Virus record (IMG/VR): IMGVR_UViG_3300028891_000002
Span: 1 to 55,840 of that record
Strand: one strand, 5' to 3'
Source of the DNA: a virus
Length of the DNA stretch: 55,840 nt
In this document: positions 20,890 to 49,184 of the stretch, piece after piece
Position numbering within the stretch: position 1 is the first letter of the stretch
Layout of the letters: every line of letters starts with the position of its first letter
Translations under genes and position numbers: made by a program
The notes under the pieces: generated by a model
Seen by the model: the letters and a program-made list of their open reading frames with translations, nothing else
What the model was told of the DNA's origin: nothing
The model's database searches: none

Positions 20890-21710
20890 AGATGTACCCT
20901 TCTTATAATATACTTACTCTTGAATGGAGTATCTCCTCTCTCATTATCTTCCTTAGACCAGTATGTATTAGTCTGAGGTTCAAAATAGTAGAACTTGTAA
21001 TTATCATTCTCCTTTACTAGAAATATATTGAATCCATGTCCTCCATAGTCTTCCACTATACCTATACAGTATCCTACATTGTTGATATAGTAGTACATAT
21101 TACAGAATGACTTAAAAGATATAGCAAAGTCTTCACAGTCAAATAGCTCAGCTATATAGTTCTGATAGTGTACCCAACATGAGTCTATGATCTTCTTCAT
21201 ATCCTCTAGTGTAGGTATCCTGTATTTCCAATCTAGAGGTTGATGTTCTACTGTAGAATCCCATCTATATAGTAGATCCTGTATCTTGTCTCCTGTTAAC
21301 TCTGTATCTACAGTTATCTTGGTACCTAGATATGCAAACAATGCTCTATTAGCAGTATACCATATCTTAGATCTCTCTACTAGACTCTTATCTCTCCAGT
21401 ATGATACTAGCTCCCTTAGACTCTTAATTAGACCACTAGAGTTACTAGGATGTAACATATCAAACAGTATCTTATTCTCCTCTCTAATCTCATCTAACTG
21501 TTTCTGTAGATTCTTAATCTCTTCTCTATATTGAGATACTCTATTAAGAGTCTCCTTTAACTGTTCATCTAGAGACTCATATCTCTTAACATACAGTAGC
21601 TTCTCTATATTACAGTCATGTAGACTCTTCTCTAGACTCTTAACCATACTCTCTAAACTATCTATCCTCTTCTTATATCCAGAACAGATAAGATCCATAA
21701 GCCAAGACAT
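20886..21710 (-). CDS. coiled-coil transglutaminase-like cysteine peptidase
   Basis: A 274-residue protein. Residues about 10-90 form a long coiled coil. The C-terminal half has FDCEDFA (Cys about 191), GGHGFN (His about 223) and FEPQT (acid about 242), the Cys-His-Asp/Glu layout of transglutaminase-like peptidases. Archaeal viral pseudomurein endoisopeptidases also use a transglutaminase fold, but no sequence-level link can be claimed. Placement between tail genes and holin-like proteins suggests an enzyme for host envelope breakage at egress or entry. Substrate unknown. Confidence 0.65.
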   Translation of the reverse strand: MSWLMDLICSGYKKRIDSLESMVKSLEKSLHDCNIEKLLYVKRYESLDEQLKETLNRVSQYREEIKNLQKQLDEIREENKILFDMLHPSNSSGLIKSLRELVSYWRDKSLVERSKIWYTANRALFAYLGTKITVDTELTGDKIQDLLYRWDSTVEHQPLDWKYRIPTLEDMKKIIDSCWVHYQNYIAELFDCEDFAISFKSFCNMYYYINNVGYCIGIVEDYGGHGFNIFLVKENDNYKFYYFEPQTNTYWSKEDNERGDTPFKSKYIIRRVHL

Positions 21711-32009: not shown

Positions 32010-32843
32010 CTAGCAGTTGTTTATGATACAGATGGCATCATCATTAACGATCTCAACACCATACTCCATATAGAAGTTGAGTTCTACTGAGTCTGTTGAT
32101 GGATTATCCCATCTCTTGAGTGTAAGTTCCCTCTTTATAGCTAATACTGCCGCTCTAGTAGTATCTAAGACTATAGCCTTACCACTAGTCATGTTCTGAG
32201 TGACAAAGACCTTTAGACCAGCTATCTTCCCTATTTCACCATTGAGTATAGGTTCTCTAGCTCCATAGGCACTAGCATCTATGAATCTATCATCCTGTAA
32301 TAGATCTGCTTCTTGGTCTGGATGTATAACTAGAGCATTAGGATTGTACTTAGCTGTTAACACCTTGTTTCTGGCTTTAACTATATCACCAAATGCTAGA
32401 GTACCAGTAGTAGCGGCATCTATACTTGTACTAGCAGTTAAGAGTTCTGTTATGATATCCTTGTCTTCCTTGTCAGCTATAGCTTCACCTGCTTCTAATA
32501 TGTGATCCTTGATAAGATCAAACTCACATCCATCTATAGCTTCCTGTGTAATCTTAACTTGTAGACCTATCTTTGAAGGAGTAATCTGTACAGTAGAGTA
32601 TGTAGCCTTAGTAGAGTAGCTTGATAGATCTTCTCCCTCACTAAGACTGTAGGCAGTAAGAGCACCTCTCTTAGGTATATAGAGACTCCTACCCTTAGCA
32701 CCTACAAGATCCCTGTTAACTCTAACAAGAGACCTACCAACCCTCTTAGCTCTAGCAACCTCTTCAACCTGATCTACTATAATCTTAGGAAGAACAGAGG
32801 CTATATCTGTAGTAGTAAGAGCTAGTTCTTCTAAACCTTTCAT
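32010..32843 (-). CDS. HK97-fold major capsid protein
   Basis: A 277-residue protein. It has an N-arm region, then a P-domain and A-domain with LVIHPDQEADLLQDDRF, then ILNGEIGKIAGLKVFVTQNM, a signature seen across HK97-fold capsid proteins (GxIGxIxGxxVxxS/TxN). No long N-terminal delta domain is present; scaffold or protease functions are encoded upstream. It has its own promoter with a palindromic site, which fits high expression. Codon use is slightly richer in GC than the backbone. Confidence 0.85.
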   Translation of the reverse strand: MKGLEELALTTTDIASVLPKIIVDQVEEVARAKRVGRSLVRVNRDLVGAKGRSLYIPKRGALTAYSLSEGEDLSSYSTKATYSTVQITPSKIGLQVKITQEAIDGCEFDLIKDHILEAGEAIADKEDKDIITELLTASTSIDAATTGTLAFGDIVKARNKVLTAKYNPNALVIHPDQEADLLQDDRFIDASAYGAREPILNGEIGKIAGLKVFVTQNMTSGKAIVLDTTRAAVLAIKRELTLKRWDNPSTDSVELNFYMEYGVEIVNDDAICIINNC

Positions 32844-32962: not shown

Positions 32963-33292
32963 CTAGAGTTCTCCTCTTAACCACTTTCCTAGTATCCCCT
33001 TCTTAGCCGCATATTCTAGTATCTCCCAGTTACTATATCTACCTAGCTCCTCTACTCTTCTATCCTCTCTTTTGACCTCTCTTGTTACTATAACTGGTTT
33101 GGAGAGTTCTATCTTAGCTTTCTCTAGTTGATCCTGTAGCTTCTGTATCTCTGACTGATAGTTACTGATCTCTCTCTTATATACTTCAACCTCTTCTCTT
33201 AGAGAGGATAACTCTTCAAACTGTCTCTCTATTATCTTTAATAGCTCTTTCTTAGGCATCTTATTGATCTTCTTTATAATATCTTCACTCAT
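32963..33292 (-). CDS. coiled-coil protein in head operon (possible scaffold)
   Basis: A 109-residue protein. Residues about 15-70 form a coiled coil (IIERQFEELSSLREEVEVY onward). The C-terminus (YSNWEILEYAAKKGILGKWL) is a small helical domain. Position between protease and capsid suggests a scaffold or capsid accessory. Confidence 0.6.
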   Translation of the reverse strand: MSEDIIKKINKMPKKELLKIIERQFEELSSLREEVEVYKREISNYQSEIQKLQDQLEKAKIELSKPVIVTREVKREDRRVEELGRYSNWEILEYAAKKGILGKWLRGEL

Positions 33293-33343: not shown

Positions 33344-34741
33344 TTAATCTTCTTGGCTTACAGCTATCTTGAAGAGTTCTCCTAGATGTACTTTCCCTTC
33401 TCTTACTAGCTGTCTAAGTTCATTGAGTACTTCTTCCTTACTCTTTGGTTTAGGTGTCTCTTCTTTCTTCTCTTCAGTAGGAGCTTGTTTCTCATATTCT
33501 TCAAGAGCTTTCTTGCCTTCCTCTGTTATCCTATAACGTTCCTCTGTTTCAATCTCTGGTTTCACTTTAACCTCAACTGTTACTGGTACTTTGGCTACTG
33601 GAGTCTCTTCTTTAGGAGCTTCTTCTTTCTTTTCCTCTATTACTGGTTGAGACTGAGGTTGAGGTTGTGCTTCCTGTTGAGGTGTCTGAGTAACCTGTGG
33701 AGTCTGAGAGACGCTAGGAGATGGAGGAGTCATCTGATCCTGACTAGGTTGAGGAGACTGAGGAGTAGCACTTAGCTCTTGAGACTTCTCTTCTGGTTCA
33801 GGATATTCATATGGATACTCTTCTTCCTTCTTCTTCTTTTTCTTCTTCAGATATTCCTGTAGTTCTTTTAATCCTTCTTCTCCTAGCTTCTCTGATATGA
33901 ATGCTAATATATCTTCTATATTCATCTTTTCAGGATATTTATAGTAACCATAGGGATAGTAGTAACCATAGTAACCATAAGGATATGGATAACCATAGTA
34001 TATCACTATCTTCTTACCTACTGCTCTAGCTTCTTCAGGTATCTTGGTACTATCCTCTCCAAATCTAACTATAACATGATCTCTCAGTTCCTCTGGTAGA
34101 TGCTTCAAGATAGACTGTAAGAACTCATAAGCCTTATTCTCTATTTTAGCTAGTTCTTCCATTCCTATATCACCTTCCCTATGATATATAGACTTATCTT
34201 TATTACTTAAGCCTTCCTCTGTATGTATAATGAAACAGGTACTACAAGCAGGATTTCTAACTAGAGATAGTTCTCTAAACTGGAAGTCATATCCCTCTGT
34301 ACCGTTCTCTGTATTTTTATAGCTCATATAGGTACTCATAGATACTGCTTTAAACTCTCCCTCTTTAACTAGCTTCTTAGCTTCAGGATCATCTATCTCT
34401 GCTTCAAACAGTATACCCTTAAAGAGATCCTCCCATTTAACCTTAGTAACTCTGCCTACTTCTCTATCTTTAAATTTCTCATCTCTACCATGCTCTACTA
34501 ATATAGGTTTACCCTCTAACTGTTTCATAGCTTTCTTTAGCTCTTCACTAGGATAGAATACTCCATTCCACTTACCCTCTTTTAGAGCTATTCCTCTAAT
34601 GATTAGAGGTTCTTCTGATAATACTTCAAATCTCCATACATTATCTGATAGTCTAGATAGACACTTTAGATGCTGTACCTCTGACTGTAGCTCTTCTATC
34701 TGAGCTACTAGCTCCTGTATAACAGATTCCTTAGAAGACAA
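33344..34741 (-). CDS. XkdF-like prohead protease with long scaffold-like tail
   Basis: About 465 residues. The N-terminal domain has LIIRGIALKEGKWNGVFYPS, then KPILVEHGRD, then FKAVSMSTYMSY and FRELSLVRNPAC, the pattern of XkdF-type phage serine proteases (catalytic His and Ser expected in the HG and VSM segments). The middle has a Tyr/Gly/Pro tract (YYGYPYPYGYYGYYYPYGYY). The C-terminal half is Lys/Glu/Pro/Gln-rich and disordered, probably scaffold removed on maturation. TTG 34741 is preferred after AGGTGA; GTG 34750 is inside that site. Confidence 0.75.
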   Translation of the reverse strand: MSSKESVIQELVAQIEELQSEVQHLKCLSRLSDNVWRFEVLSEEPLIIRGIALKEGKWNGVFYPSEELKKAMKQLEGKPILVEHGRDEKFKDREVGRVTKVKWEDLFKGILFEAEIDDPEAKKLVKEGEFKAVSMSTYMSYKNTENGTEGYDFQFRELSLVRNPACSTCFIIHTEEGLSNKDKSIYHREGDIGMEELAKIENKAYEFLQSILKHLPEELRDHVIVRFGEDSTKIPEEARAVGKKIVIYYGYPYPYGYYGYYYPYGYYKYPEKMNIEDILAFISEKLGEEGLKELQEYLKKKKKKKEEEYPYEYPEPEEKSQELSATPQSPQPSQDQMTPPSPSVSQTPQVTQTPQQEAQPQPQSQPVIEEKKEEAPKEETPVAKVPVTVEVKVKPEIETEERYRITEEGKKALEEYEKQAPTEEKKEETPKPKSKEEVLNELRQLVREGKVHLGELFKIAVSQED

Positions 34742-34769
34742 ATACTTCACCTATAAGATAAAGATAAGA

Positions 34770-34795: not shown

Positions 34796-37700
34796 TCATG
34801 GTTTGCTTACTATCTCTGGAGGATTGTCTCCTCTCTTCATTATCCACTCATATCTAGATAGTCCCTTACCCTTCATCCATGCTCTAGCTGTCTCCTCTGT
34901 CCACTTGTCCTTATAGAACTTGAGATATGCTATTCTAGCATGATGAAATGTACCTTCTATAGGATATAGACATACACCTATCTCTACTCCCTCTGGTACT
35001 TCTAATCCTATAGTCTTGAGATATGGTTCTGGATCTTCACATCTAGTGAACTCTCTAGGATCATATAGTCTAAGATAGAAGTAGTCTCTATGATCTTCTA
35101 GTAGAGCTGGTTTATATGATTCTCCTGTATATGGATCTCCAGTAGATAGAGACTTATCTGTAGGTAGTTTAGATTTCATGAATATCCATCCTTTATCTGT
35201 CTTCTTAGTTATATAGTATCCTTTAAGCTTCTTGCCATGAAAGATCATAGACATGAAGATATCACTATCCTCTATTATCTCTACTTCTCCTTTGTCTAAT
35301 CTATCTACCTTGGTCTGTAGTTTACCTACCTTTACAAATCCCTCTGTTACCTCATCTGTTATCCACTTTAGATCTGTACACTTCTTTCTAACTGCTTCTA
35401 TAGGTTCTTCTATATCTGTCTCTAGAGGATTACTGTATAGATTAAACTCATCTAGATAGTCTCTATTATCTATTCTCATTCTAATATCATAGTGAGATGT
35501 TATCTGTCCTCTAACAGGATATAGAGTATGCTTATCTAAAACAAATATGCCCTTAGAGAGACTGTGTTTAGATATTCTAGAGAGAGTATAGATATCTGAG
35601 TCTGGTTCTTCCTGTCTTAATATATATTCTCCTTTTAGAGTCTTACCATTAAACTTTAGCTCTAGTATCTCTTCTCCTAGAGATCCTTCTCCTGACTTGA
35701 TGTCTACTGTACCTGTATCTAGAAGGACACAATGACATGGTATCTCTTTAGTAGGACAGTATTGAGATCTAGGTTTAAGTTCTCCTTCTCTCTTCATCCA
35801 TCTTCTATCTACTCTACCCTCATAGATAGCTGTTAATGGAGTCTCCCATACTGGATCTCCCTCAAACATCCATGATCTGACTGATCCTCTTCCTCTATCA
35901 TCTATCCTGATAAACCATCTTCTCTGAGGTATATCTCTAATTACTTTCTGTCCTTTCCAGTATATCATAGAGAATGAGAATCTAGGTTTAGCTAGAGACT
36001 CTTCTTCCTTCCACTTCTCTTTAACCCATTCTAACCATTCCTCATATTTCTTCTTGTTCTCTTCTATCCACCATTTAGGTATAGGTATATGTCCCTTGGG
36101 AGGATACCATCCCTTCTTTCTAGCCCTCTTACTTACAGCATAGGGTTCTTGATCTTTAGGTATCATCACTCTCCACAGTAGCTCATATTCTCCCTTAATA
36201 GGTTTCTTGGTTTCTGGATCTATCTTCTGTGCCTTTACTCCTCTTATTACTACTCTAAGCTTCTTAAACTTCTCTCCATCTAGAAAGTACTCATGGAAGT
36301 ATGGTTTCTGTGCTCCTATGGTTATCTTACCCTTATCTAGAAGATAGAACCATCCATATTCATATCTAGTAGCTCCTACTGATCCTTTAGGTATCTTTAC
36401 TATATCTCCTATCTTCTTTAGTCTTCCTCCTAGATCTAACCATACAACTGGTTGTCTAGCTTTGGTCTCTGCTCTTAGTCCTACTCCTTTCTTGTTTGGA
36501 GTAAACTTCCAGTCATGTTTCTCTACTAACTCTTTAACTTCTTCCTTAGAGTCTGGTTTATCTTCTAGTCCATTATCTAATATAGTCCATCCTATTAGAT
36601 GATTATCTATCTTGAATCTGAAGTCTATATGTACACTATTGTGAACCCTTAAGAAACCTACTCCTGCCAAGAAATCCTGTGTCTCTGTTTCTACATCATA
36701 CACATATCTCTTGTAAGAATAGAAGAATGTTTCTTCATCAGTAGGAGCATTAACAAGATGTTTACCATCCTTGTAGTTTGGATTCTTTTCTCCAATGAAA
36801 TCTACTGCTTTAGATTCAACTATCTTTCTAACTGTATTTCTGTTCTTGACAGTAAGATTATGTTCTTTAGAAATTAGTCTAACTCTAATTAGATCTCCTT
36901 GTCCTCTTATGTAAAACTCTTTATCAGGATAAAGATTCTTCAGAATGATTAAGATTCCTTGTATTAGAGACTGAGAAGAGGAAGCAAACTCTATCTTCTC
37001 AGGATAGCCTATACCATCTCCTTTTAGGTAACCATCTAAAAATGCAGAGAGAGACTCTCTGTTCCAGTTGAAGATAAAGTCAGGAATGATCTTCCATCTT
37101 GCTTTTCTTTCTTTTACCTCATGTACACCTGTAACTGTTCCTTTTGTAAACCTGTAATCTCTGAAATAGAGATCAGTAATTTCTTTGAATCCTTCTTTCT
37201 TACTTTTAACAATGTGATAGTTGAAACCATATCTCTCAAGATAAGATATAACAGGTCTCAAGATCTCTAGATCAGTAGTAGTAATCTTTACCGTACCATC
37301 TCTCTTGACAGAACCCTCTGCTAGAAAGAGTCCCCAAGTATAGGCATAGTCAAGATCAACACTAACTTCAAGAGGCAGTCTAGGAACAGGAATCTCATCT
37401 AAGGGTACACCTTTCTGTAGATCCTTAGTAGCTATTTCTTGTCCATTAGAGAAGAGAGAATGATCCTCAGTTACTTCAACAACAGAATCCCAAGTAAAGA
37501 CTCTATATATTCTTTTAGGAGGATGTTTATAGAATCTCTTTAGTTTCTTCCAACCTTTAGATGTCCAGATCTCTATGCTAGAGAGATCTTCTCTGTTTTC
37601 TAGAGTCTTTATAGGTATTACTCTTATTCTATCCTGTTCTCTAATAACTATTGGAGTTCTATCTGAGACACTTCTTCCTCTTATATGATATTGTAGGACA

Positions 37701-37807
37701 TAGGGTAGCTTACCATTCTTGTTAGGAGGAGGTAGCTCCATATATCTAGCTATGTTAGCTTGTAGACTCTGATATCTATCTTTCAACATGTGTTTATAGA
37801 TTATCAC
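34796..37807 (-). CDS. LigD-type 3'-phosphoesterase-domain protein with intein
   Basis: A 1003-residue precursor, about 658 after intein removal. Extein: His41 (VLQYHIRGR) is followed after splicing by SVHIDFRF (His393, Asp395, Arg397), matching the LigD phosphoesterase signature HxxxxxHxDFR with one extra residue between the histidines. Later GSLGEEILELKFNGKTLKGEYILR and a second SHYDIRMRIDN, then a third KKLKGYYITKK segment, show that the fold is repeated two or three times; later copies look degenerate. In bacterial and archaeal end joining this domain trims 3' ends for ligation. It lies next to the ligase gene and the protease gene. GTG start after AGGTGAT. Confidence 0.7.
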   Translation of the reverse strand: MIIYKHMLKDRYQSLQANIARYMELPPPNKNGKLPYVLQYHIRGRSVSDRTPIVIREQDRIRVIPIKTLENREDLSSIEIWTSKGWKKLKRFYKHPPKRIYRVFTWDSVVEVTEDHSLFSNGQEIATKDLQKGVPLDEIPVPRLPLEVSVDLDYAYTWGLFLAEGSVKRDGTVKITTTDLEILRPVISYLERYGFNYHIVKSKKEGFKEITDLYFRDYRFTKGTVTGVHEVKERKARWKIIPDFIFNWNRESLSAFLDGYLKGDGIGYPEKIEFASSSQSLIQGILIILKNLYPDKEFYIRGQGDLIRVRLISKEHNLTVKNRNTVRKIVESKAVDFIGEKNPNYKDGKHLVNAPTDEETFFYSYKRYVYDVETETQDFLAGVGFLRVHNSVHIDFRFKIDNHLIGWTILDNGLEDKPDSKEEVKELVEKHDWKFTPNKKGVGLRAETKARQPVVWLDLGGRLKKIGDIVKIPKGSVGATRYEYGWFYLLDKGKITIGAQKPYFHEYFLDGEKFKKLRVVIRGVKAQKIDPETKKPIKGEYELLWRVMIPKDQEPYAVSKRARKKGWYPPKGHIPIPKWWIEENKKKYEEWLEWVKEKWKEEESLAKPRFSFSMIYWKGQKVIRDIPQRRWFIRIDDRGRGSVRSWMFEGDPVWETPLTAIYEGRVDRRWMKREGELKPRSQYCPTKEIPCHCVLLDTGTVDIKSGEGSLGEEILELKFNGKTLKGEYILRQEEPDSDIYTLSRISKHSLSKGIFVLDKHTLYPVRGQITSHYDIRMRIDNRDYLDEFNLYSNPLETDIEEPIEAVRKKCTDLKWITDEVTEGFVKVGKLQTKVDRLDKGEVEIIEDSDIFMSMIFHGKKLKGYYITKKTDKGWIFMKSKLPTDKSLSTGDPYTGESYKPALLEDHRDYFYLRLYDPREFTRCEDPEPYLKTIGLEVPEGVEIGVCLYPIEGTFHHARIAYLKFYKDKWTEETARAWMKGKGLSRYEWIMKRGDNPPEIVSKP
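36638..37672 (-). other. intein in phosphoesterase-domain protein
   Basis: A 345-residue intein (precursor residues 46-390). It starts with Ser in SVSDRTPIVI, ends with VHN and is followed by Ser+1. Block B lies in the EVTEDHSLFSN segment. Two LAGLIDADG-type motifs (WGLFLAEG and LSAFLDGYLKGDG) indicate a homing endonuclease that keeps both acids. It splits the metal-binding signature of the enzyme, so splicing is needed for activity. Confidence 0.9.
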
Positions 37808-37950
37808 TCAAAATCACCTTCCCATTCTCTTATTATAGGTGTTCTAAACTCTACCCATACTCTACCACACTTCTGACATCTATAGATACATGAGTCTGCT
37901 GTACAGGACTCTATACTCCATTCATGTTTACATTCTTCTTTCTCACTCAT
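37804..37950 (-). CDS. 48-residue zinc-ribbon protein
   Basis: The frame fills the gap between the ligase stop (adjacent) and the phosphoesterase start (GTGA overlap). Cysteines in EECKHEW, ESCTADSC and RCQKCGRVW form a likely ribbon. Tight coupling with both enzymes suggests it belongs to the end-processing cassette. Confidence 0.6.
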   Translation of the reverse strand: MSEKEECKHEWSIESCTADSCIYRCQKCGRVWVEFRTPIIREWEGDFE

Positions 37951-40900
37951 CTATTTACTCACCTCTATATATTCAGGTAGATCAGTTATATCTCTATACT
38001 CATAATAGTAGTCTTTAACATAGACACACTTGTATCTGTTAGCTAGATTACATCTGATGGGGAATCTCAATGTCTCTACTTTTACTGATAACTGTTCTCT
38101 TATTCTTCTCTCTCTTTCTCTCCATCCCTCTGAATATAGAGGGTAAAGTGGACATATCTCTGGATTGTCAAAGTATGGACATCTCTGTAGAGGTATCCTT
38201 ATCTCTGTTTTAGAGAGAGGATGTGTACCTGCCTCTGCTATCCTCAATGCTGTATCTAATCCATCTGGTTCTTTCTTGTCTATTCTCTTTCCTCTAAATA
38301 TAGGGAACATCCATGTTAGATACTTCTTACCCTCTTCATCTTTAAATACTCTTATTCTGATAGGAGATACTGTTATTATATCTCCCTCTTTACACTTAAC
38401 ATCAGTATTATATGTTCTACCTATATGGAGATACCACTTACCATCTATCTCTACTAGAAACTTATCACTCCACTTATCCTTCTCTTTAGGAGGTATTCTA
38501 ATAACTGCTTCATAGTTATATGTACCTGCCTTAGTCTTATTTATCTTCCATACCATAACATCTATCTCCTTTACATTCTTTATCTTGGAGTTATGAAGTA
38601 TAAGATAAGGAGTGATATAGGAATCTTCTCCCTCTATTTGGAGATCATAGACTGTCTTTTTCTCATAGATCTCTCTAATCTTGATGGTTAGATCAGGTTC
38701 TCCTTTAAGGAATCTAAATCTGAAGTATCCTCTACCTCTTCTTGGCTTTAGTTTCTGAACTGAGACTTTAAATCCTCTATACTGAAGTATGAGGAAGAGT
38801 CTACCTGCAAGAGAACTACTAGATGTGGAGAACCCTACTCTCTTAGAAGAAGACTCAATCCATCCATCACCCTCAAGATATCCTTCCAAGAATGCTTTAA
38901 ACTTAGAATCATCTAACTTAGCAAGAAAGAGAGGAACAGTCTTACGGTCAGACTCATCTAAGAAGTGTTGACTTAACCAAGATGCAAAGGGAAGATCCCA
39001 GAATCTAAGAAGAGCAATCTTATATTTATAGAGAGAAGGTTTGACATTGAAGAGTCTTTCTATTATCTTAGAATATTTCTCAAGAACAGAGGGATCTTTC
39101 TGACAGACAACTATGTCTCCTTTGTTTCCTTCTTTAGTCTTACTACTTCCTATCCATCCTTCTGCTACCCAGAATCCTAGGAATCTCCAGAAGTCTTCAT
39201 TACACTCTATCTTCTTCTTGTAGCCATGCCAAGATAGAACTAAAGTCTTGGGAGGTTCTTCTGTATAAATCTCTAATTTTGGAAAGAGAGATTTCCTATC
39301 CCCTATTTCAGAGACTGGTATCCAAGAATCTGTTGTCAACAGTTCATGATTACCTGTTAATCTGATTGCTAAACCTGATAATGTTCTCACTTCAAATAAT
39401 CTTTCCTCTGGTAACATTCTTCTCTTTTGGATAGCTACTATTCTATGTGGTTTTCCATCTTTAGAGTAAACTAAATCTCCTATCTTGAGATCCTTTACTT
39501 TCCTGAAGCCTTTAGGAGTAAGAAGATAAGATCCTCCTGTAATACACCACAGATCTGTTCTAGGAGTAGTCTTATAGGATATCTTGTAAGTAGAGTTAGC
39601 TGTCTTCAACATAGCACCTTCACTATTAGGATAGTATCTAGCTTTATCTAGATATTCTTCAAACTCATCCTTGTCTCTAGCTATCCATGACTCTACTAGA
39701 GACCAATGTCTTAATCCTTTAGGTACTAGCTTCTTCAATAGATTGAGTCTCTCTATATATGGTTTATCTGTTAACTGTTCTCCATCATAGTAGAGAATAT
39801 CATGTATATGGAAGACTACATTTCTATCATCTAATCCCTTCTTAGCTACTATCCACTTTATCATATCCTCTCTCTGATACTGTTCACACTTCTGTTCTAT
39901 TTCTTTACCTGTCTTATATTTCTCTGCACATTCTGAAGGATAATCCACAAGTTCCGTGTCGATTATATAGTCTTTCTCTGGAAACTTCTGTAGCATCTCT
40001 CTTACTGATTCTTTGAAGTATTTAGCTCTATCTCTTAACTGATCCTCTGTAAATATCCATATCTTATCTCCTGCTCTGTGTATCTGTAATCTAAAGCCAT
40101 CATATTTAGGTTGTATCACTATACCATCATCTATATATTCTGATCCCCAGTTCTTCCATAACATAACAGGATCAAAAAACTCATTCTTATTGAAGGTAGT
40201 ACCTGTCTTCATAGGCTTAAATGGTTTACCTACTGTTATCTTCTTCTCTTTAGATAGAGACTCATCTCTACTTACTCTAGTATATGATAGCTTGTAGAGA
40301 GGTATATTGTATCCTACCATAGCACCATGAGGAGAGTATATGAAGTGTAGTCTCTTAAATAACCAATCTGGTAACACTCTCTCTAGTTCTTTTATCAATC
40401 TAGGATCAGGATATCTCTGCTTGATAACTATATCTATATCATGATCTACAGGTATCTCTCCTTCATTGACTATTCTACCTACTAGGAATATATGAGCAGG
40501 AGGATCATTGATAGTGAATGTATTAGGAAATGCATCTAGTACCTCTTTTAGTGTTATCTTATCTTTCTCTAGTCCTTTAGGAGGAGAAGGATATTCTACT
40601 ACTATAAGTTCAGATTCTCTATCTAGTTTATCTTTGATAGTATGAGGTATGTTTCTCTCTAGCATCTCTTTCCATACAAATATGTGAGCATTGATAGTCT
40701 CTTCTGATATTCTACCCTTTTCTTCTAGTTCTCTATTTGCTACTTCATGTAACCAGTCATGTAGAGATATTAGATCTTTATCAGATAGACTTCTAACTAA
40801 TCTATCATCTATTTTCTCTATACTCCATTCTGCTAACTCTTCTATCTCTTCTAGATCTATACCCTTCTTCTTCAATCTCTCTTTAACCTTCTCGTATAGT

Positions 40901-42519
40901 TCTCTAGCATACTTCTTCATCTCTTTAGGTCTAAATGTATGTTTTAACTTACCTGCTTTAACTCTTTTATAGATTTCCTCTACTATCTTACTTTGAAACT
41001 CTATACACTTCTCTGGAGTAAGCTCTATTCTCTTGTCATATTCGTTAACATGGATCTTTTTACCTCTCTTTAGAGAAGAGTACCATGCCATAACTATTCT
41101 ATAGTCATCTCTTAGAGGTAGATCATCTATCTTCTTAGGATCATATTTCCCTATATCCTGTATAAGATCTACTCTATCTAGGATACAGTAGCTAGTATCT
41201 CTCATACCTTTAGGATGAGGTATCTCTAGTCTATTGAAGCATTCTACTAGATAGTTATGATACTCTATATCTTCATCTGTTATCTCTTCTTTAGAGTGTA
41301 TCTTAGCATGTTCTAATATAAGATCTTCTAGAGTGAGATCTAATACTATATTCTCTGGTTTAATGAATACCTGTGCTCCTCTAGGATACTCTACTGATAT
41401 AGGAGTAGAGAACTGTTTCAATACAGAGACATGATAGGAATATAGTTTATCCTTCTTAGAGAATGACCATCTATCTGCCTCTTCATCTGTTATCTTATGA
41501 TATTCTCTTAACTGTTTAAACTGTTCTTGTGTTATCTCTTCTGGTTCATCTAGTCTAATTATACCTAGAGCTTTCTTATCTTCTATTAACAGTAGAGGTT
41601 CATTGATATGTTCAGTATACTTCTTAGATTTGATTACTAGTGTCTTCTCTCCCTTCATTATTAGAGTACCATGAGGAGATACTAGGATATATCCAGCTGT
41701 ATATTCAGGTATATCTGCTATCTTCTTAGGAGTAATGATATCTTCTGTGGTAACAGTAAGATCTTTAGAGGATATCTCCATCTTGTCTCTAGCTACTGTT
41801 ATCTTTATATCTCTGTCTCCCACTAGATCCTCTATCTTCTCTTTCAATTCTCTATCTCCCATCCCTACTGCTTCTTCTCCTAGATGTGTAAGTATAAGAT
41901 GTCTAATATCATTTTCTTCTAATATATCTAGTAGCTCTCTAACAGAGAGATGACCATATATCTCTCCTGTATCCTTATCTCTTCTAGTTATAGACTTATC
42001 TATTGTAGAGGTATCTCCTATCCATACATCTATGTTCTTAAGATACTTCTCCTGTTTATCTTTCTTTATCCATCTCATATCTGGAGCATATATTATTCTC
42101 TTGTTATCTACTTCTATTAAGAGTATATCCATAGGATGTTTAACAGAGTGCAGCACAGGTATAGGAGTTATCTTAAAGTCTCCTAGAGTATTAGTCTGCT
42201 CTGATTCTAGTATCTTCAGTCTATTCTCTTTCTTGAAGTGTTCTATCCAAGAGGGAGTACAGGTATCAAATGTTAGTCTAGTAGCATAGATATCACAGTT
42301 AGGATCTTCTTCCTTTAATCCTCCTATATGATCTTTATGTGAGTGTGTGATTACTATATAGTCTGGTTTGATATTCTCTATCTTCCAGTCTCTATCTACT
42401 CCTACATCTACTAATAGCTTCTGTCCACTATTACTGATAACAAGAATAGAAGAGTGATTTCTATGATTACTATTTTCTTTATCTATCTCTCCCTTAGTAC
42501 CTAGAAATACTATCTTCAA
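37951..42519 (-). CDS. MBL - nucleotidyltransferase - ATP-dependent DNA ligase protein with intein
   Basis: A 1522-residue precursor, about 1203 after splicing. Residues 1-245 are a metallo-beta-lactamase fold with intact THSHKDH (His59, His61, Asp63, His64), later His, Asp (YAPDMRW) and LTHLG. About 270-350 looks ASCH/PUA-like. A long helical part follows. About 660-775 is a Pol-beta-type nucleotidyltransferase (VGRIVN, then DHDIDI near 692). About 780-991 is the ligase adenylation domain: KYDGFR with Lys805, IDTELV, EGAMLK. After the intein, SKIKN completes motif V, then an OB domain and a Cys-containing tail. Domain order suggests nuclease, nucleotide addition and sealing in one protein. 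TTG start; divergent promoter. Confidence 0.8.
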   Translation of the reverse strand: MKIVFLGTKGEIDKENSNHRNHSSILVISNSGQKLLVDVGVDRDWKIENIKPDYIVITHSHKDHIGGLKEEDPNCDIYATRLTFDTCTPSWIEHFKKENRLKILESEQTNTLGDFKITPIPVLHSVKHPMDILLIEVDNKRIIYAPDMRWIKKDKQEKYLKNIDVWIGDTSTIDKSITRRDKDTGEIYGHLSVRELLDILEENDIRHLILTHLGEEAVGMGDRELKEKIEDLVGDRDIKITVARDKMEISSKDLTVTTEDIITPKKIADIPEYTAGYILVSPHGTLIMKGEKTLVIKSKKYTEHINEPLLLIEDKKALGIIRLDEPEEITQEQFKQLREYHKITDEEADRWSFSKKDKLYSYHVSVLKQFSTPISVEYPRGAQVFIKPENIVLDLTLEDLILEHAKIHSKEEITDEDIEYHNYLVECFNRLEIPHPKGMRDTSYCILDRVDLIQDIGKYDPKKIDDLPLRDDYRIVMAWYSSLKRGKKIHVNEYDKRIELTPEKCIEFQSKIVEEIYKRVKAGKLKHTFRPKEMKKYARELYEKVKERLKKKGIDLEEIEELAEWSIEKIDDRLVRSLSDKDLISLHDWLHEVANRELEEKGRISEETINAHIFVWKEMLERNIPHTIKDKLDRESELIVVEYPSPPKGLEKDKITLKEVLDAFPNTFTINDPPAHIFLVGRIVNEGEIPVDHDIDIVIKQRYPDPRLIKELERVLPDWLFKRLHFIYSPHGAMVGYNIPLYKLSYTRVSRDESLSKEKKITVGKPFKPMKTGTTFNKNEFFDPVMLWKNWGSEYIDDGIVIQPKYDGFRLQIHRAGDKIWIFTEDQLRDRAKYFKESVREMLQKFPEKDYIIDTELVDYPSECAEKYKTGKEIEQKCEQYQREDMIKWIVAKKGLDDRNVVFHIHDILYYDGEQLTDKPYIERLNLLKKLVPKGLRHWSLVESWIARDKDEFEEYLDKARYYPNSEGAMLKTANSTYKISYKTTPRTDLWCITGGSYLLTPKGFRKVKDLKIGDLVYSKDGKPHRIVAIQKRRMLPEERLFEVRTLSGLAIRLTGNHELLTTDSWIPVSEIGDRKSLFPKLEIYTEEPPKTLVLSWHGYKKKIECNEDFWRFLGFWVAEGWIGSSKTKEGNKGDIVVCQKDPSVLEKYSKIIERLFNVKPSLYKYKIALLRFWDLPFASWLSQHFLDESDRKTVPLFLAKLDDSKFKAFLEGYLEGDGWIESSSKRVGFSTSSSSLAGRLFLILQYRGFKVSVQKLKPRRGRGYFRFRFLKGEPDLTIKIREIYEKKTVYDLQIEGEDSYITPYLILHNSKIKNVKEIDVMVWKINKTKAGTYNYEAVIRIPPKEKDKWSDKFLVEIDGKWYLHIGRTYNTDVKCKEGDIITVSPIRIRVFKDEEGKKYLTWMFPIFRGKRIDKKEPDGLDTALRIAEAGTHPLSKTEIRIPLQRCPYFDNPEICPLYPLYSEGWRERERRIREQLSVKVETLRFPIRCNLANRYKCVYVKDYYYEYRDITDLPEYIEVSK
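38590..39546 (-). other. intein in DNA ligase motif V
   Basis: A 319-residue intein (precursor residues 992-1310). It begins with Cys in CITGGSYLLTPKG, has a block B segment RLTGNHELLT, ends LILHN and is followed by Ser+1. LAGLIDADG motifs LGFWVAEGW and FLEGYLEGDGW keep their acids. Removal joins DLW to SKIKN, restoring the ligase WxKxK motif. Confidence 0.92.
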
Positions 42520-42567: not shown

Positions 42568-43596
42568 ATGTCTATAATGAAGAAGCTCTATAGATATTTT
42601 GATAACAAGAATATTCTGATTACAGGTGGAGGAGGATTTATAGGAACTAATCTAGCTAGGAGATTGGTATCTAACTATAACTGTAATGTTACTGTAGCTG
42701 ATATTAGATTTATAGATTGGTATCTAGAGGATATAGATAGGAAACTAGAGAAGATAAGAGTAGATATAAGAGATTATTGGAGATGTCTTAAGCTAACTAG
42801 AAGAAAGGATATAGTGTTTCATCTATCTGCTAATATGGGAGGTATAGGATTCATAGTTATTAATAGAGCTAATGTTATGAGAGATAATCTAAGAATGAAT
42901 GTTAATATGTTAGAGGCTAGTAAGGAGAATAATGTAGAGAGATTCTTCTTCTCTAGTTCTGCTTGTGTATATCCAGAAGAGAAGCAGACTACACCTGATG
43001 TTAAGCCTCTAAGAGAGGAGGATGCTATACCTGCTAACCCTGATACCTACTATGGATGGGAGAAGCTAACTACTGAGAAGCTATGTGAAGCATATTATCT
43101 AGACTATGAGCTAGAGACTAGAGTAGCTAGATTCCATAATATCTATGGAGAATACTGTAGTTTTGATGAGAGAGGTAAAGCTCCTGCTCATCTTATAGGT
43201 AAAGCGTTACTGTATCCTAGAGTTAGATTTACTATATGGGGAGATGGTAGACAGACTAGATCATTCTGTTATATAGAAGACTGTCTAGATGCTGTATTAC
43301 TGTTAACATCATCTGATATTAGAGAACCTCTAAATATAGGATCAGATAGACTTGTTACTATAGATGAACTAGCTAATATGATTATAAAGATATCTGGTAA
43401 GTATATTGAGAAGGAGTATATAGAAACAGGTATACAGGGAGTAAGAGGAAGGAATGCTGATCTAACTAAGATAAGACAGTTACTAGGATGGTATCCTAAG
43501 TATAGTCTAGAAGAGGGATTAGAGAGAACATTTACATGGGCTTTAAAGAATATTAATAGAATAGATTGGAGTTATCTTCTTAGAAGTATTTCTTGA
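42568..43596 (+). CDS. NAD-dependent epimerase, GDP-mannose 3,5-epimerase-like
   Basis: A 342-residue protein of the extended SDR family. The NAD-binding loop is GGGGFIG (residues 20-26). The segments ANMGGIGFI, NMLEASKENNV, SSACVYPEEKQ, YGWEKLTTEKL (YxxxK), ARFHNIYGEY, WGDGRQTRSF and NIGSDRLVTIDE run closely parallel to plant GDP-mannose 3,5-epimerases. The predicted product is GDP-L-galactose or a similar sugar nucleotide for the nearby glycosyltransferases. It is the only plus-strand gene in the right half and its end overlaps the convergent gene by 17 bases, so it looks like an acquired cargo gene. Confidence 0.88.
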   Translation: MSIMKKLYRYFDNKNILITGGGGFIGTNLARRLVSNYNCNVTVADIRFIDWYLEDIDRKLEKIRVDIRDYWRCLKLTRRKDIVFHLSANMGGIGFIVINRANVMRDNLRMNVNMLEASKENNVERFFFSSSACVYPEEKQTTPDVKPLREEDAIPANPDTYYGWEKLTTEKLCEAYYLDYELETRVARFHNIYGEYCSFDERGKAPAHLIGKALLYPRVRFTIWGDGRQTRSFCYIEDCLDAVLLLTSSDIREPLNIGSDRLVTIDELANMIIKISGKYIEKEYIETGIQGVRGRNADLTKIRQLLGWYPKYSLEEGLERTFTWALKNINRIDWSYLLRSIS

Positions 43597-44515
43597 TATT
43601 ACTAGCTAGATCTAGATGATGATATGCTGGATACTGATACTCTTCAGCATAATATTTGACCACACTATATGAATCAGAGAACAGACCTACTATCTTATGA
43701 TTTTTCAAAACAGAGGAGTAGAGAATAACATGCTTCCTATTTGTAATATGATTAGGGATAAGATGTACTATTCCTTTAACTGTAGCTGGATCTAGTTCTA
43801 GATTTATCCATTCTAGTAGCTTATTCTTCTCTTCTTTAGATATATCTAGATTAGAGATAATATAGGAGAAGAGTATATGATCCATCTCTGGTATATAGAA
43901 TCTGTGTTTACACATTATGATAGGAACAACAGTATAGTCTCTAGATAATATCTGATATGATTTGAATATAGGAAGAATAAACTCTGATCTGTTTCTACAT
44001 GATAATCCTATTAGAGGCTTACTAGTGTCAAAGTATTTCTCTATTAGCTGTTTAGCTTTATCTATATTAGGTGAAATCTCTAATGCTGGATCTCTAACTA
44101 CCTCTATATTCTCTATTCCTATCTGCTCTAGATTTCTCTTATCCCAGTTGGTTCTAACAGATAGATAGTTTACTCTATTGAGAGCATACTTGACTATTAA
44201 GACATCTGATGTCATTATATGAGATCCTACTCCATATACTGTTACTGGTTTATCTTGTCTAAGATATGCTATCACTCTCTCCATATAGTTTCTAGCTGAT
44301 CCATCATATAGTATACCTCCTCCTCCTAGTATCAGTTCATCTAGATCATCTCTAAACTTAGTAGTAAAGGGAATATCAGGACAATAGTCTCTATGTTCTT
44401 TAGGAGCTAGAGAATATACCATAATATCTCTAGTGCCAAATATCTTTAGACATCCTAGTAGTATAGCATCATCTCCTCTGTTTCCTGCTCCATAAGCTCC
44501 TATCAGTAATCTCAT
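43580..44515 (-). CDS. polysaccharide pyruvyl transferase family protein
   Basis: A 311-residue protein. The N-terminus GAYGAGNRGDDAIL and the later ELILGGGGILYD and VYGVGSHI match the polysaccharide pyruvyltransferase (CsaB/WcaK-like) fold. It transfers pyruvate from phosphoenolpyruvate to a sugar in an exopolysaccharide or S-layer-linked glycan. It is grouped with a GT2-GT9 protein and an epimerase, so it is probably part of a viral glycan-modification set. Confidence 0.8.
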   Translation of the reverse strand: MRLLIGAYGAGNRGDDAILLGCLKIFGTRDIMVYSLAPKEHRDYCPDIPFTTKFRDDLDELILGGGGILYDGSARNYMERVIAYLRQDKPVTVYGVGSHIMTSDVLIVKYALNRVNYLSVRTNWDKRNLEQIGIENIEVVRDPALEISPNIDKAKQLIEKYFDTSKPLIGLSCRNRSEFILPIFKSYQILSRDYTVVPIIMCKHRFYIPEMDHILFSYIISNLDISKEEKNKLLEWINLELDPATVKGIVHLIPNHITNRKHVILYSSVLKNHKIVGLFSDSYSVVKYYAEEYQYPAYHHLDLASNIKKYF

Positions 44516-44766
44516 TATTGTATATCTCCATATAGTTTTACTTCTTCCTTTACATATGGTGTCTTCTTACCTGTAACTAGATCTGCTATTAGTCTATCTA
44601 TCTCACTCTTAACTATCCATCTCTCCATGTTTAGTTGATCTATCTTCTTCTTACACTCTGTAGTTATCTTGGGATCATAGTTAGACTTTCTTATCTTACT
44701 TTCTAGATGAAATATCTTGTTATTGATAATGGATAATCTCTCTATTAGATCAGATAGTGTCTCCAT
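44515..44766 (-). CDS. small coiled-coil protein
   Basis: An 83-residue, highly charged helical protein (DLIERLSIINNKIFHLESKI, later CKKKIDQLNMERW). It lies between two glycan genes with a 1-base overlap to the pyruvyltransferase start. Function unknown. Confidence 0.6.
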   Translation of the reverse strand: METLSDLIERLSIINNKIFHLESKIRKSNYDPKITTECKKKIDQLNMERWIVKSEIDRLIADLVTGKKTPYVKEEVKLYGDIQ

Positions 44767-44770
44767 ACTC

Positions 44771-46552
44771 TTATAACACCTCTCTTAGATCTCTATTAAA
44801 GAAGAGTTTCTCTACTATAAGAGTATACATATTCTCTAGGTTATCTGTCTTACTATACCAGTAGTCTACTGTCTCTATATATCTATCTATCTGTTGTTCT
44901 CTAGCAGAGAACTTTCTAGGATCATTAGACTGTATCTGAGTATCTCTATTAGGGAGTATATGTATGCTAGGAGTTCTAGTTAGAATAGACAACCACCATA
45001 TACCAGTATCTATAGATACAAGGAGATCAGTATTAAGGAGTTCAGATATTACTCCATCTATATCTAGCTTAGATCCTCTATTATCTATCTCTGTTCTTCC
45101 CTGATATGGTTCTAGACTTAGATTAACTATCTCTATATCTCTTGTCTTCTTTAATCTATCTAGTAGATTATCTATTTTAGAGTAATCTAATCTAACTATG
45201 CAGGAAAGACCTGATAGAGATAATCCTATCTTATATCTCTTCTTCTTAGGTCTAGGAGTGTATCTATCTAGAGAGATAGAGGGTATAAGTGTTCTATTTA
45301 TACCACATCTAACATAGATAAATCTATTAAAGGAATAACTAGATTGATAGAACTCTCTCTCATATTCAGGATTTATCTGTGGTATCAGTAGATCTCTATA
45401 TTGTTCTCCTATCTTTCTAGCTTTATGATAACCTATACCGAATATATTCTCCTGTATATTACTGGTTTCTCTTATAGAGATTAACTGATCTATATATGAT
45501 ATCTTAGAGAGAAAGTCTTTATAGTGATGAGAACATAACCAGACTATCTTGTCTCCCTGTCTCTTATAGTATTCTGCTACTGGTAGTGTAGCTACTATAT
45601 CTCCTAATCTACCTAGCTGTAGTATACAGGTAGCATCTATCTTTATGTTGCACTGTGCAACATTACCATTATAGGGTATCTTATAAGTTCCTCCTCTACA
45701 TGGATAGTTCTTAGTTAAATCATAGAGAGGAGGATGCTGTTGTGCTCCTCTAGGTAGATCTCCCCATTTACTATAGTAGAGTAAGAGATTCTTCTTGAAT
45801 AGATCTATCTTCTTAGCTCTCTCTTCTGGATGATCATAATAGTATTTACCTCCAAAGTGTCTGAATCTACATCTCCTGTTTCTGTAGCCTCTATATCCTG
45901 CTAGATATATTCTATGGAGAAAGTCATTGTCCTCTACATATCTAGGTTCATATATCTCATCAAAGTATCCTACTATCTCTATTGTCTTAGGAGTAACTAG
46001 AAAGGCAGAGAAGTCTCCAGTATATACTGTATCATCCATGTCTTCATATATTCCTCTAGATATTCCTCTAGGAGGAGATAGATAGTCTACTCCATTCATG
46101 AATATACAGTCATCTAGTTTATTATAGTCTTCTATCATCTTCTCAATATAGTTTCTCTCTAGATCTATATCATTATTGAAGACAAAGATATAGTCTGCAT
46201 CATGTTCTATAGCATATCTTATACCTGTATTCCAAGCATGAGCTACACTCTTTCTACCTTTAAGGATAATGTGATTTATCTGTTCACTAGATAGATATTC
46301 TAGAGTACCATCTGTAGAGCAGTTATCTACTACTAGGATAGAACACTTATCTATTATACTCTGATTTCTTAGAGACTGTATTGTTAGTCTAGTATCCTCT
46401 AAACATTGAAAGGTAGTAACTATTAAGAAGATAGATTTAGGAGACAGATCTATCTTCACCTCTCTCTTTCTCTTCTTCTCTTCTTCTATTCTAGATAAAA
46501 TATAGAACTGTTCTCTTCTCTTTCTTCTTAGAATCTTCTTTCTTCTTCTCAT
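44771..46552 (-). CDS. bifunctional glycosyltransferase (GT2 plus GT9-like)
   Basis: A 593-residue protein with a very basic N-terminus (RRRKKILRRKRREQF). The GT2 domain is at about 35-270 (VDNCSTDGTLEYL; FNNDID as the DxD-type motif; EDNDFLHR). The C-terminal domain, about 305-580, resembles GT9 heptosyltransferases (ILQLGRLGDIVATLPVAEYY, then LLVSIDTGIWWLSI). The fusion suggests two successive transfers. It lies in the late region next to fibre genes, so it may glycosylate virion proteins. Confidence 0.8.
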   Translation of the reverse strand: MRRRKKILRRKRREQFYILSRIEEEKKRKREVKIDLSPKSIFLIVTTFQCLEDTRLTIQSLRNQSIIDKCSILVVDNCSTDGTLEYLSSEQINHIILKGRKSVAHAWNTGIRYAIEHDADYIFVFNNDIDLERNYIEKMIEDYNKLDDCIFMNGVDYLSPPRGISRGIYEDMDDTVYTGDFSAFLVTPKTIEIVGYFDEIYEPRYVEDNDFLHRIYLAGYRGYRNRRCRFRHFGGKYYYDHPEERAKKIDLFKKNLLLYYSKWGDLPRGAQQHPPLYDLTKNYPCRGGTYKIPYNGNVAQCNIKIDATCILQLGRLGDIVATLPVAEYYKRQGDKIVWLCSHHYKDFLSKISYIDQLISIRETSNIQENIFGIGYHKARKIGEQYRDLLIPQINPEYEREFYQSSYSFNRFIYVRCGINRTLIPSISLDRYTPRPKKKRYKIGLSLSGLSCIVRLDYSKIDNLLDRLKKTRDIEIVNLSLEPYQGRTEIDNRGSKLDIDGVISELLNTDLLVSIDTGIWWLSILTRTPSIHILPNRDTQIQSNDPRKFSAREQQIDRYIETVDYWYSKTDNLENMYTLIVEKLFFNRDLREVL

Positions 46553-46824
46553 TGTACTTCAAAGTAGTATCTCTCTTTACCTGTCTTATCTGATTTGACT
46601 ATCTTCCACTCTACATACCAGACTCCTGTATTAGAATCAGAAGGAATATTATAATCAATATAATAGACACCTGTAGATTCCTGAGTAGGAGAAGTATTGG
46701 TCTCTTTAAGAGTGTTTGAAGGATCATATATCTTAATCTCTTGACTATCAGGATCAAATAAGTTACCACTAAAGTCTTTTATAGTGGCTTTTATTCTTAC
46801 TGTCTCTCCTCTATATACTGTCAT
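46549..46824 (-). CDS. beta-sandwich virion protein (putative)
   Basis: A 91-residue protein, Ig-like: GETVRIKATIKDFSGN, DPDSQEIKIYDPS, then TGVYYIDYNIPSDSNTGVW. This pattern occurs in small phage structural or fibre-associated domains. It overlaps both neighbours by 4 bases. Confidence 0.6.
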   Translation of the reverse strand: MTVYRGETVRIKATIKDFSGNLFDPDSQEIKIYDPSNTLKETNTSPTQESTGVYYIDYNIPSDSNTGVWYVEWKIVKSDKTGKERYYFEVQ

Positions 46825-49184
46825 TTCTCTATCATCTCTATTTCAATAATATATTCTTTCTCTATTTGAATGTTTATATTGTGTTTGAGAAGAGTAGGAG
46901 TAACTGAATACTCTATCTCTAGTTTACTGATATCTTTCTCTAGAAGGGTTAGAAGAAGAGTGTACTTCAATCTCTGTAGAGAGAGGACTATACCTTTCAA
47001 CCAAGGAAGGAATGGAGTTACTTGATCTGTTAACTTTATATCTTGTAAGATAAAAGAGGAGATAGCTCTATTTACTATCTCACTAATTATTAGATCCTCT
47101 AATAAGACCTTTCTAATATCTCTAGTATAGAGATCTGATAGAGAAAGAGTATCTAGCAGAGATCTAGAGAGAGTTCTTCTAGTAATATCGGAGAGAGTAA
47201 GAGAGAGAGCTATCAGTTTATCTATACTCTTTATGTGTTGTTCTAACAGATCTATTTCTTCTCTAATACTCTTAGAGGGAGATCTAATAACAGTTTCAGT
47301 TAATCCTATAGTCTCAGTTAACTCTTTAATCTTAGCTTTAAGATAGGATATAGTATCTGTTAGATCTAGAGTATCTGTTATCTTCTTATCTGTAGTTCTA
47401 ACATACTGATCTAGAAGAGTTAGAGTCTCTAGTAGAATCTTAGCTTTAGTCTTAACTATATCTAGAACATCTGAGGTAGAGAGAGATTCTTCTATTAACT
47501 TGGAAGGAGTCTTAGATATTATATCACTAAGAGTAACTGTATCTGTTAATATTCTATATGCTGTTAGAAGTCTAGATAATTCTTCTATGAGAGAGATATC
47601 TTCTACCAGATATTTAGATGAAGTTCTAACTATAATATCAGATAAGGAGACAGTATCTTGAATAAGGAAAGTAGAAGACTTTATTAAAGAATCTAGTAGA
47701 GAGATGTCTTCAGAGTAGACTCTATAGATATCCCATACTCTAGAATAGATATCTGTTAAAGAGAAACTTTCTGTTAACAGTTTACTATCTGTCTTGATAA
47801 GAGCATCTGTTAGACTAGAAGTCTCAGTTAGAGTCTTATGGAAGATAAGAGACTTTAACATCTGATCTGAGAGAGAAGTAGAGTCTTCTAGAATAGAACC
47901 TATTGTCTTTACTAAACTATCTGTAAGAGGAATTTCTTCACTATAACTTCTAAATAGAGAGAGACTTTTAGAGAGAAGATCTGTAAGAGAAAGAGAATCA
48001 GTAGATAGTTTATCAGTCTTCTTTAGAAGAGTATCAGAGAGAGAAGAGGTATCTGTAAGGATCTTAATAGAAGATGTTGTAAAGACATGAGATAGAGAGA
48101 GATCCTCTGTCTTTAGAAGAGAAGTAGATGCTATCTTAACTTCTCCTAGAGATACTGAATCAGTTAAGAGAGAAGAAGGACTCTTAACAGAGGCATCAGA
48201 GAGACTAAGAGAATCTGTACATTCTTGAGAATAGCTAGTACCTCCCTCTGGTTCAAAATATCCAAATACATAACAATGAGCATTGGAAGGATCAAGTCCA
48301 GATAAATATTCTTCAAAAATAACATTATTATCTAGCTTTACAGTTAAACCTGTCCATCTATCTAAAGTAGCATCATCGTATAAAGTATCACTTGAACCAT
48401 TCGCTCTGATCCCTATATCTGCTGAATCAGAATCAGAATAGAAAGCAAACATAAAGAGACCTACTGCACTAGAGGAGGTAGAATCAGAAGCATCAACATC
48501 AACCCATGTATTATAAGTGGAAGTAGTTTCATCATAACCGTTAGTATGAAAGACAGCAGGAGACTCTATATATCCAACAAGATAAACTTCAGTACTAGCT
48601 CCTATGAATGGTTTTCCAACATAAGATTCCAAAATAAGAGAGCTGTCTACACCGACCATAAGAAAAGCAAACTCAGCTAGATTTTTAACGAAATTATCTG
48701 TAGAACCATTACATCTTGATAAACCTTCTCTATCAGAAGAATCCGCTCTAGTATGAAAAACAATAACCCCCTTAGTATTAACTGAAACGTAACTAGAGAC
48801 GTCTACATCTACCCATGAATTAGCTGTGGAAGGTGTAATATCTGTCCAATTAGTAAAGAAGGTTACCTTGGAGTCTGCTTCTCCATTTAGATAAATCTTA
48901 ATGACAGTATCTTCAATCTTAGCTTCAAATATATAATTGCTATCAATACCAGTATAAGCTCCTCTTAGATGACCAACATTTAAATCGTAATAGTGATTAT
49001 CGGTAGATCCATTCTTTCTTACACCTACACTGTAACCTCCAGTAGACTGAGTAGCCTTAATAAGTAAAGATACACCTGTAGCACCAGATGCAACATAAGA
49101 AGAAACATCTACATCTACCCATGAACCTGTAGTGGTAGGTGTAACATCAATAGAGTTAGTGTAGAAGCTCCAGCATTGTGCCAT
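46821..49184 (-). CDS. fibre-like protein with N-terminal beta repeats and 18-residue repeats
   Basis: A 787-residue protein. The N-terminus has three repeats of about 102 residues, each starting FxTNxxDxT and containing SWVDVDVSSY, which look like glycan-binding beta sandwiches. From about residue 320 to 718 there are about 17 tandem repeats of 18-21 residues with consensus LTDTLSLSDxLxK, a likely fibrous stalk. The C-terminal 65 residues are distinct (LQRLKYTLLLTLLEKDI). It probably forms a head or tail fibre. The N-terminal third has codon use unlike the stalk. Confidence 0.7.
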   Translation of the reverse strand: MAQCWSFYTNSIDVTPTTTGSWVDVDVSSYVASGATGVSLLIKATQSTGGYSVGVRKNGSTDNHYYDLNVGHLRGAYTGIDSNYIFEAKIEDTVIKIYLNGEADSKVTFFTNWTDITPSTANSWVDVDVSSYVSVNTKGVIVFHTRADSSDREGLSRCNGSTDNFVKNLAEFAFLMVGVDSSLILESYVGKPFIGASTEVYLVGYIESPAVFHTNGYDETTSTYNTWVDVDASDSTSSSAVGLFMFAFYSDSDSADIGIRANGSSDTLYDDATLDRWTGLTVKLDNNVIFEEYLSGLDPSNAHCYVFGYFEPEGGTSYSQECTDSLSLSDASVKSPSSLLTDSVSLGEVKIASTSLLKTEDLSLSHVFTTSSIKILTDTSSLSDTLLKKTDKLSTDSLSLTDLLSKSLSLFRSYSEEIPLTDSLVKTIGSILEDSTSLSDQMLKSLIFHKTLTETSSLTDALIKTDSKLLTESFSLTDIYSRVWDIYRVYSEDISLLDSLIKSSTFLIQDTVSLSDIIVRTSSKYLVEDISLIEELSRLLTAYRILTDTVTLSDIISKTPSKLIEESLSTSDVLDIVKTKAKILLETLTLLDQYVRTTDKKITDTLDLTDTISYLKAKIKELTETIGLTETVIRSPSKSIREEIDLLEQHIKSIDKLIALSLTLSDITRRTLSRSLLDTLSLSDLYTRDIRKVLLEDLIISEIVNRAISSFILQDIKLTDQVTPFLPWLKGIVLSLQRLKYTLLLTLLEKDISKLEIEYSVTPTLLKHNINIQIEKEYIIEIEMIEK

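Follow-up and report, generated by a model that had tools for sequence, protein, structure and literature searches.

A DNA ligase and a phosphoesterase-like (PE) protein with three LigD-type repeats are encoded in the head operon of this virus, and we tentatively read them, at almost an even chance, as a module for the repair of DNA nicks and ends, which archaeal tailed viruses would load into their heads and deliver together with the genome. The module is widespread, since alignment-based scans revealed about 50 PE-encoding viral contigs, and what is seen directly are the domain identities, the conserved ligase and metal-binding residues, the synteny and the ORF fusions described below; loading into the head and delivery are predicted from these.

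Gene organization in the window

The window comprises a whole IMG/VR record of 55,840 bases, which is classed as linear and is possibly a fragment. Three tightly coupled ORFs on the minus strand (34796-42519), which the preliminary description had proposed, were confirmed. In the direction of transcription, they encode a protein with metallo-beta-lactamase (MBL), ASCH-like, helical, nucleotidyltransferase (NTase) and ATP-dependent DNA ligase domains (1522 aa with its intein; 37951-42519), a 48-aa zinc ribbon (37804-37950) and the three-repeat LigD-type PE-like protein (1003 aa with its intein; 34796-37807). The ligase protein matched the Pfam families DNA_ligase_A_M (E=1e-26) and Lactamase_B_2 (E=2e-17) and the PE protein matched LigD_N (E=1.6e-5, but with 25.4 bits compared to a curated cut-off of 31.1 bits), from which we conclude that the three ORFs do not occur by chance.

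Head genes, namely those of the protease and the major capsid protein, follow immediately downstream. On the same strand, the transcription order continues with the head maturation protease, which directly follows the PE gene at its 3' side (33344-34750), a small ORF of 109 aa with coiled-coil-like character (32963-33292), which is possibly a candidate scaffold, and the HK97-fold major capsid protein (32010-32843). The genes of the portal protein (50194-51429) and the large subunit of the terminase (51435-53699) share this orientation and precede the PE gene by about 12-14 kb. The window protease is weakly XkdF-like; a profile comparison links it to XkdF with a probability of 78%, which is a weak link, and no Pfam XkdF match was obtained for it (G000).

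A TATA-like stretch, TATATTTA, is located at 42544-42537, about 20 nt before the start of the ligase gene, which faces a divergent plus-strand gene; the ligase gene is therefore probably the leaderless first gene of a minus-strand transcription unit. The divergent gene (42568-43596, plus strand) is nucleotide-sugar epimerase-like and interrupts the late minus-strand operon directly upstream of the ligase. Glycan-transferase-like genes (43580-46552, minus strand) form part of this interruption. A protein of 787 aa, encoded at 46821-49184, is made up of numerous degenerate 'SLSD' repeats and may be a fibre. Elsewhere in the window, an archaeal-type replication and repair block (6514-19202) contains genes for XPF/ERCC4-HhH, ThyX, a RadA-like ATPase, S-adenosylmethionine decarboxylase and PolB as well as a ParB-like gene. 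Near the contig start, a MoxR-like AAA ATPase adjoins a VWA-domain protein (1668-4527), and the C-terminus of a 274-aa protein (20886-21710) weakly matches agglutinin and lectin C-terminal domains.

The ligase protein is of the LIG1/archaeal type

The domain order proposed earlier for the ligase protein, i.e. MBL, NTase and ATP-dependent ligase, was borne out, and an ASCH-like domain and a four-cysteine C-terminus can be added to it (all coordinates on the minus strand). The N-terminal MBL domain is RNase Z/PhnP-like (41755-42519) and holds all residues of the HxHxDH, H, D, H set; its best matches were Lactamase_B_2, RNase Z and PhnP, besides weak matches to RNase J models. It is followed by the ASCH-like domain (41350-41733), identified by comparison of the family profile with the structures 2dp9/1wk2 (E about 1e-3) and accompanied by a Pfam ASCH match in one relative, and by a conserved helical 'NAHIFVWKEM' domain, to which no function is assigned (40510-40815). 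In the Pol-beta-type NTase domain (40213-40503) the G...HDID signature is invariant in 21/21 aligned proteins, and the putative third acidic residue is a serine in the window.

The adenylation domain with motifs I (KYDGFR), Ia, III and IV (39547-40212) and the segment with motif V and the OB-fold domain (38215-38589) identify the protein as an ATP-dependent DNA ligase by motifs I, III, IV, V and the OB domain. Motifs I, IV and V are intact in all 20 relatives that cover them. Both profile and model assign the ligase to the LIG1/archaeal type and not to the LigD type. The profile matches of the ligase span only about columns 715-1029, which correspond to the adenylation and OB domains, and no N-terminal DNA-binding domain of the LIG1 type was recognised by these matches. 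The C-terminal tail (37951-38214) harbors four conserved cysteines, equivalent to C1111, C1120, C1147 and C1155 of the relative L002, which could form a putative Zn or Fe-S site. Among the relatives, neither MBL nor NTase is at once universal and fully conserved; Pfam detected MBL in 11 of the 21 ligase proteins, a set that includes several truncated ones.

The PE repeats retain the fold and, in two repeats, the metal site

The first PE repeat is split by an intein into an N-terminal part with the Gln40 and His42 equivalents (37673-37807) and a remaining part, in which His48, Asp50 and Arg52 are kept, His84 is replaced by Gln and Tyr88 by Trp (36224-36637). Repeat 2 (35555-35983) retains the fold and has lost the metal residues. 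Repeat 3 (35159-35554), which is the closest to cellular archaeal PE, retains the H,H,D,R metal residues and has no His84 equivalent. The C-terminal domain (34820-35146, like the repeats on the minus strand) is kept in many relatives and has no assigned function.

The PE fold is well supported by an AlphaFold model, by structure-profile matches and by alignment to cellular PE. As suggested in the preliminary description, the structure was predicted, using the intein-free relative L002 (mean pLDDT 81.5), and LigD PE structures made up the top six PDB matches in the fold search. DDB1/PCNA-type matches of the same model were discarded as beta-repeat noise, and a fold search of BFVD returned no meaningful PE-like viral protein. 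The family profile matched 3p4h/3p43/5dmp, with repeats 1 and 3 matching different LigD PE structures, and hhalign comparison with cellular archaeal PE profiles gave 96.6, 98.0 and 98.7% for the repeats, compared to 1.4 and 0.4% for an XkdF control.

In LigD, the metal is bound by His42, His48 and Asp50, while His84 and Tyr88 are also needed, and His84 was reported to be essential in the Pseudomonas aeruginosa enzyme (PMC8656161). In repeat 1 of the viral proteins the metal site (His42, His48, Asp50) and Arg52 are invariant and Gln40 is mostly kept, and the position of Tyr88 is occupied by Trp in 27/27 rows. At the position of His84, all 27 aligned rows carry Gln (24) or Glu (3), and more distant members vary further at this site, with Glu and Lys among the residues observed. 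In cellular archaeal PEs, His84 is kept and position 88 is occupied by either Tyr or Trp. The metal set of repeat 3 is retained in 21/22 proteins, that of repeat 2 is lost. The repeated LigD-type signatures noted before hold true and can be refined to three repeats, of which the middle one has lost the metal site. Since His84 is replaced by Gln or Glu throughout the alignment of repeat 1, a phosphatase activity is uncertain; judged from these residues, catalysis by the PE repeats is not well supported, unlike the fold.

Inteins mark both large genes

In the window, both large genes and the terminase gene carry inteins, of which those of PE and ligase could be delimited by intein-free homologues. 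The PE intein (residues 46-390; 36638-37672) splits the metal site of repeat 1 (HIRGR|S...HN|SVHIDFR), and the ligase intein (residues 992-1310; 38590-39546) is located immediately before motif V (DLW|C...HN|SKIK); that of the terminase comprises residues 286-595 (about 51915-52844; all on the minus strand). The inteins of relatives reside at other sites, for example beside ligase motif I (L003) and in the NTase (L004). Inteins in or beside catalytic motifs usually mark conserved essential sites.

Distribution of related modules

Full-length relatives were found on MAG contigs labelled Archaeoglobales and Thermoprotei, and samples of these two archaeal phyla added a handful of strong matches. 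Many weaker PE matches in the archaeal MAG samples were also obtained, and those checked represent single-domain cellular PEs. A scan for close relatives using the window PE protein alone gave no match. Among GenBank phages, a relative is encoded by ANMV-1 only, an archaeal virus from methane-seep sediment. No earlier description of the ligase/PE module was found in the literature searched, which was limited to open-licence papers.

The zinc ribbon was present in the window only among the records searched, and we reject it as a conserved third component. The gene trio of the preliminary description therefore recurs in other viruses with respect to ligase and PE, whereas its 48-residue zinc ribbon, although present as a gene, is not conserved. 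The earlier statement that Ku and a LigD-type polymerase are missing held up, with Ku in 0/30 and LigD polymerase in 0/19 related virus records, some of which are possibly fragments.

Only one ligase is encoded in the window. Of 19 related records, which may be fragments, the majority likewise yielded no ligase other than that of the head operon. In three of the 19 (G011, G012 and G023) a second full-domain ATP-dependent DNA ligase is located tens of kilobases away, so that the head ligase is not the sole ligase in these genomes.

Coupling to head genes is recurrent among relatives

The contig counts given here are based on one contig per row (n=50), with some near-copies. Within the contig DNA examined, 41/50 contigs contain at least one head gene (protease, capsid, portal or terminase), and in 14/50 the protease gene has the orientation of the PE gene and follows it at a distance of no more than 1.5 kb. 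The order ligase, PE, protease and major capsid protein recurs among relatives, and a portal gene immediately precedes the ligase gene in L014, L016, L017, L024 and ANMV-1.

Moreover, the enzymes are fused to head proteins in several relatives. PE and a Peptidase_S78_2/XkdF domain share a single ORF in L030, L032, L074, L080 and L081 (E 7e-14 to 3e-25), in three of which the ligase is also part of this ORF; in annotated phages, XkdF takes the protease position between the portal gene and the capsid genes. The ORF of L080 (5016-10778) is 1920 aa long and, besides the ligase, two PE repeats and the XkdF protease, includes an NTase and a pair of D12 DNA methyltransferase domains. In L075, ligase, PE and a protease of the window type form a single ORF, and in L028 and L031 an ASCH-like domain is fused behind the portal domain. 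In the window, by contrast, the protease has a gene of its own, apart from those of ligase and PE. On the PE tree at least three changes are needed to account for the protease fusion, which tentatively suggests that it arose repeatedly and independently, although it may have arisen only once. The setting within the head operon, as noted earlier, is strengthened by the conserved gene order and by these fusions.

Several XkdF-matched genes of bacterial phages are labelled 'DNA methyltransferase'. These are mostly small XkdF ORFs in the head-protease slot and hence provide no evidence for a fusion of enzyme and protease. The XkdF-type head proteases at L110 4010-4462, L111 3974-4429 and L112 3370-3822 bear this label, which is apparently a propagated misannotation.

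Discussion

According to the reading that we tentatively favour, ligase and PE protein would be made late, together with the protease and the capsid protein, as the operon order suggests, and would enter the procapsid with the protease, to which the single ORFs with protease and the ASCH-like-portal fusions of relatives point. After encapsidation and proteolytic release, both would remain with the packaged genome and be ejected along with it. The LIG1-type ligase, pre-adenylated, would then seal nicks or join the genome ends, the PE repeats, two of which have the metal triad, would hold or trim 3' ends, and MBL and NTase might act as accessory end- or nucleotide-processing domains; these substrates and reactions are what we infer for the module. 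A ligase that is carried in the adenylated state could act once without ATP. The former proposal that trimming, nucleotide addition and sealing are bundled as in LigD is only partly sustained: the ligase and the PE metal triad are kept, but the ligase is LIG1-type, His84 is lost, the NTase has a serine at its putative third acidic position and MBL was detected in about half of the proteins. Likewise, a loss of catalytic residues, which had been named as evidence against the proposal, applies to His84 of PE and not to the ligase motifs or the metal triad of PE repeats 1 and 3.

The head-operon, portal and protease links and the intact ligase motifs and PE metal sites would also fit a module that works in the producing cell only, where it would dock on the portal or procapsid and mend nicks, gaps and branched ends of concatemers for packaging, with no delivery to the next host. 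We regard this as less likely, since the fusion to the head protease suggests that the module enters the procapsid instead of acting from without. A plain role in viral replication or repair, with an accessory end processor and a late-region position that is due to chance, is possible in the window and most related records, because the head-operon ligase is the only one found there; nevertheless, the recurrence of the head synteny across distant relatives, the ORF fusions to protease and portal, the separate ligase of three genomes and the location of the window PolB, RadA-like and XPF-like genes in another block make it highly improbable.

The chances of a function in RNA repair or anti-defence, in which PE would act with the RNase Z-like MBL, the ASCH, the NTase and the ligase to restore tRNA or mRNA after cleavage by defence nucleases of the host, are slim, although a little better than those of a plain replication ligase. 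ASCH domains often act on RNA, the MBL is closest to RNase Z/PhnP, and two superfamily relatives, the RNA_ligase and mRNA_cap_enzyme models, are weakly matched by some members. By profile and model, however, the ligase is a LIG1-type DNA ligase, and neither a polynucleotide kinase in the families scanned nor a tRNA gene in the window was found. Least probable of all do we consider catalytically dead PE repeats, the barrels of which would have a structural or DNA-binding role in the head and leave the ligase as the sole enzyme. The loss of His84 in repeat 1, its absence in repeat 3 and the missing metal site of repeat 2 would agree with this, but a dead domain need not keep a metal triad and Arg52 that are invariant in repeat 1 and retained in 21/22 proteins in repeat 3.

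Returning to the head-loaded, genome-delivered module, a more far-reaching version of it would be a Ku-independent end-healing and sealing apparatus that is packaged in the capsid and made with the head protease, or as a polyprotein with it, by which incoming genomes would be repaired or circularised before viral expression, with PE as a new catalytic subfamily devoid of His84. We consider this version doubtful. If the favoured reading is true, DNA ligation and end processing would join the short list of enzymes that are thought to be virion-borne, and the module could explain how the genomes of certain archaeal viruses, of which several stem from MAGs of hydrothermal sediment, are protected or circularised on entry. 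The analysis also sets apart a PE subfamily whose active site is altered, and it names a testable set of proteins, i.e. the ligase, the triple PE and the protease and portal fusions.

Comparison with known systems

The closest annotated counterpart is the 'ATP-dependent DNA ligase' AJP62006 of ANMV-1 (KP703175), which is homologous to the window proteins and combines ligase and PE-like repeats next to a portal-like gene. It differs in being a fused protein of 866 aa, with two PE repeats detected and without MBL. Its PE part is unnamed in the record, and the ligase is unmentioned in the main text of the 2015 paper. With bacterial LigD and archaeo-prokaryotic NHEJ the module shares PE homology and an ATP-dependent ligase partner. 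In contrast to these systems, the ligase is LIG1-type and encoded in a head operon, His84 of PE is replaced, and neither Ku nor LigD polymerase was found; thus PE, POL and LIG are not united in one LigD protein, with no LigD POL in 19 records. Single-domain archaeal PEs of the 3p4h / 3p43 type are clearly related to repeat 3 by sequence and have the fold in common with all repeats, but the cellular proteins are single and possess His84, whereas the viral PEs are triplicated and lack it.

Polyvalent proteins, as characterized in the pertinent passages of Iyer et al. 2017 (PMC5512222), are multi-enzyme proteins whose genes lie among those for virion components; they are joined to peptidase, MuF or portal domains and have been proposed to be packaged and injected. 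In the passages of that paper on ligase, phosphoesterase, lactamase and ASCH, DNA ligase with LigD-type PE is not among the examples. The module shares with such proteins the location next to virion genes and the fusion to head or peptidase modules, with the fusions occurring in relatives and not in the window. It differs in being often split over separate ORFs and in belonging to archaeal viruses, and its packaging is deduced from the genes. Head-packaged enzymes fused to peptidase or portal are thus already known as a general idea, of which the module described here is a variant.
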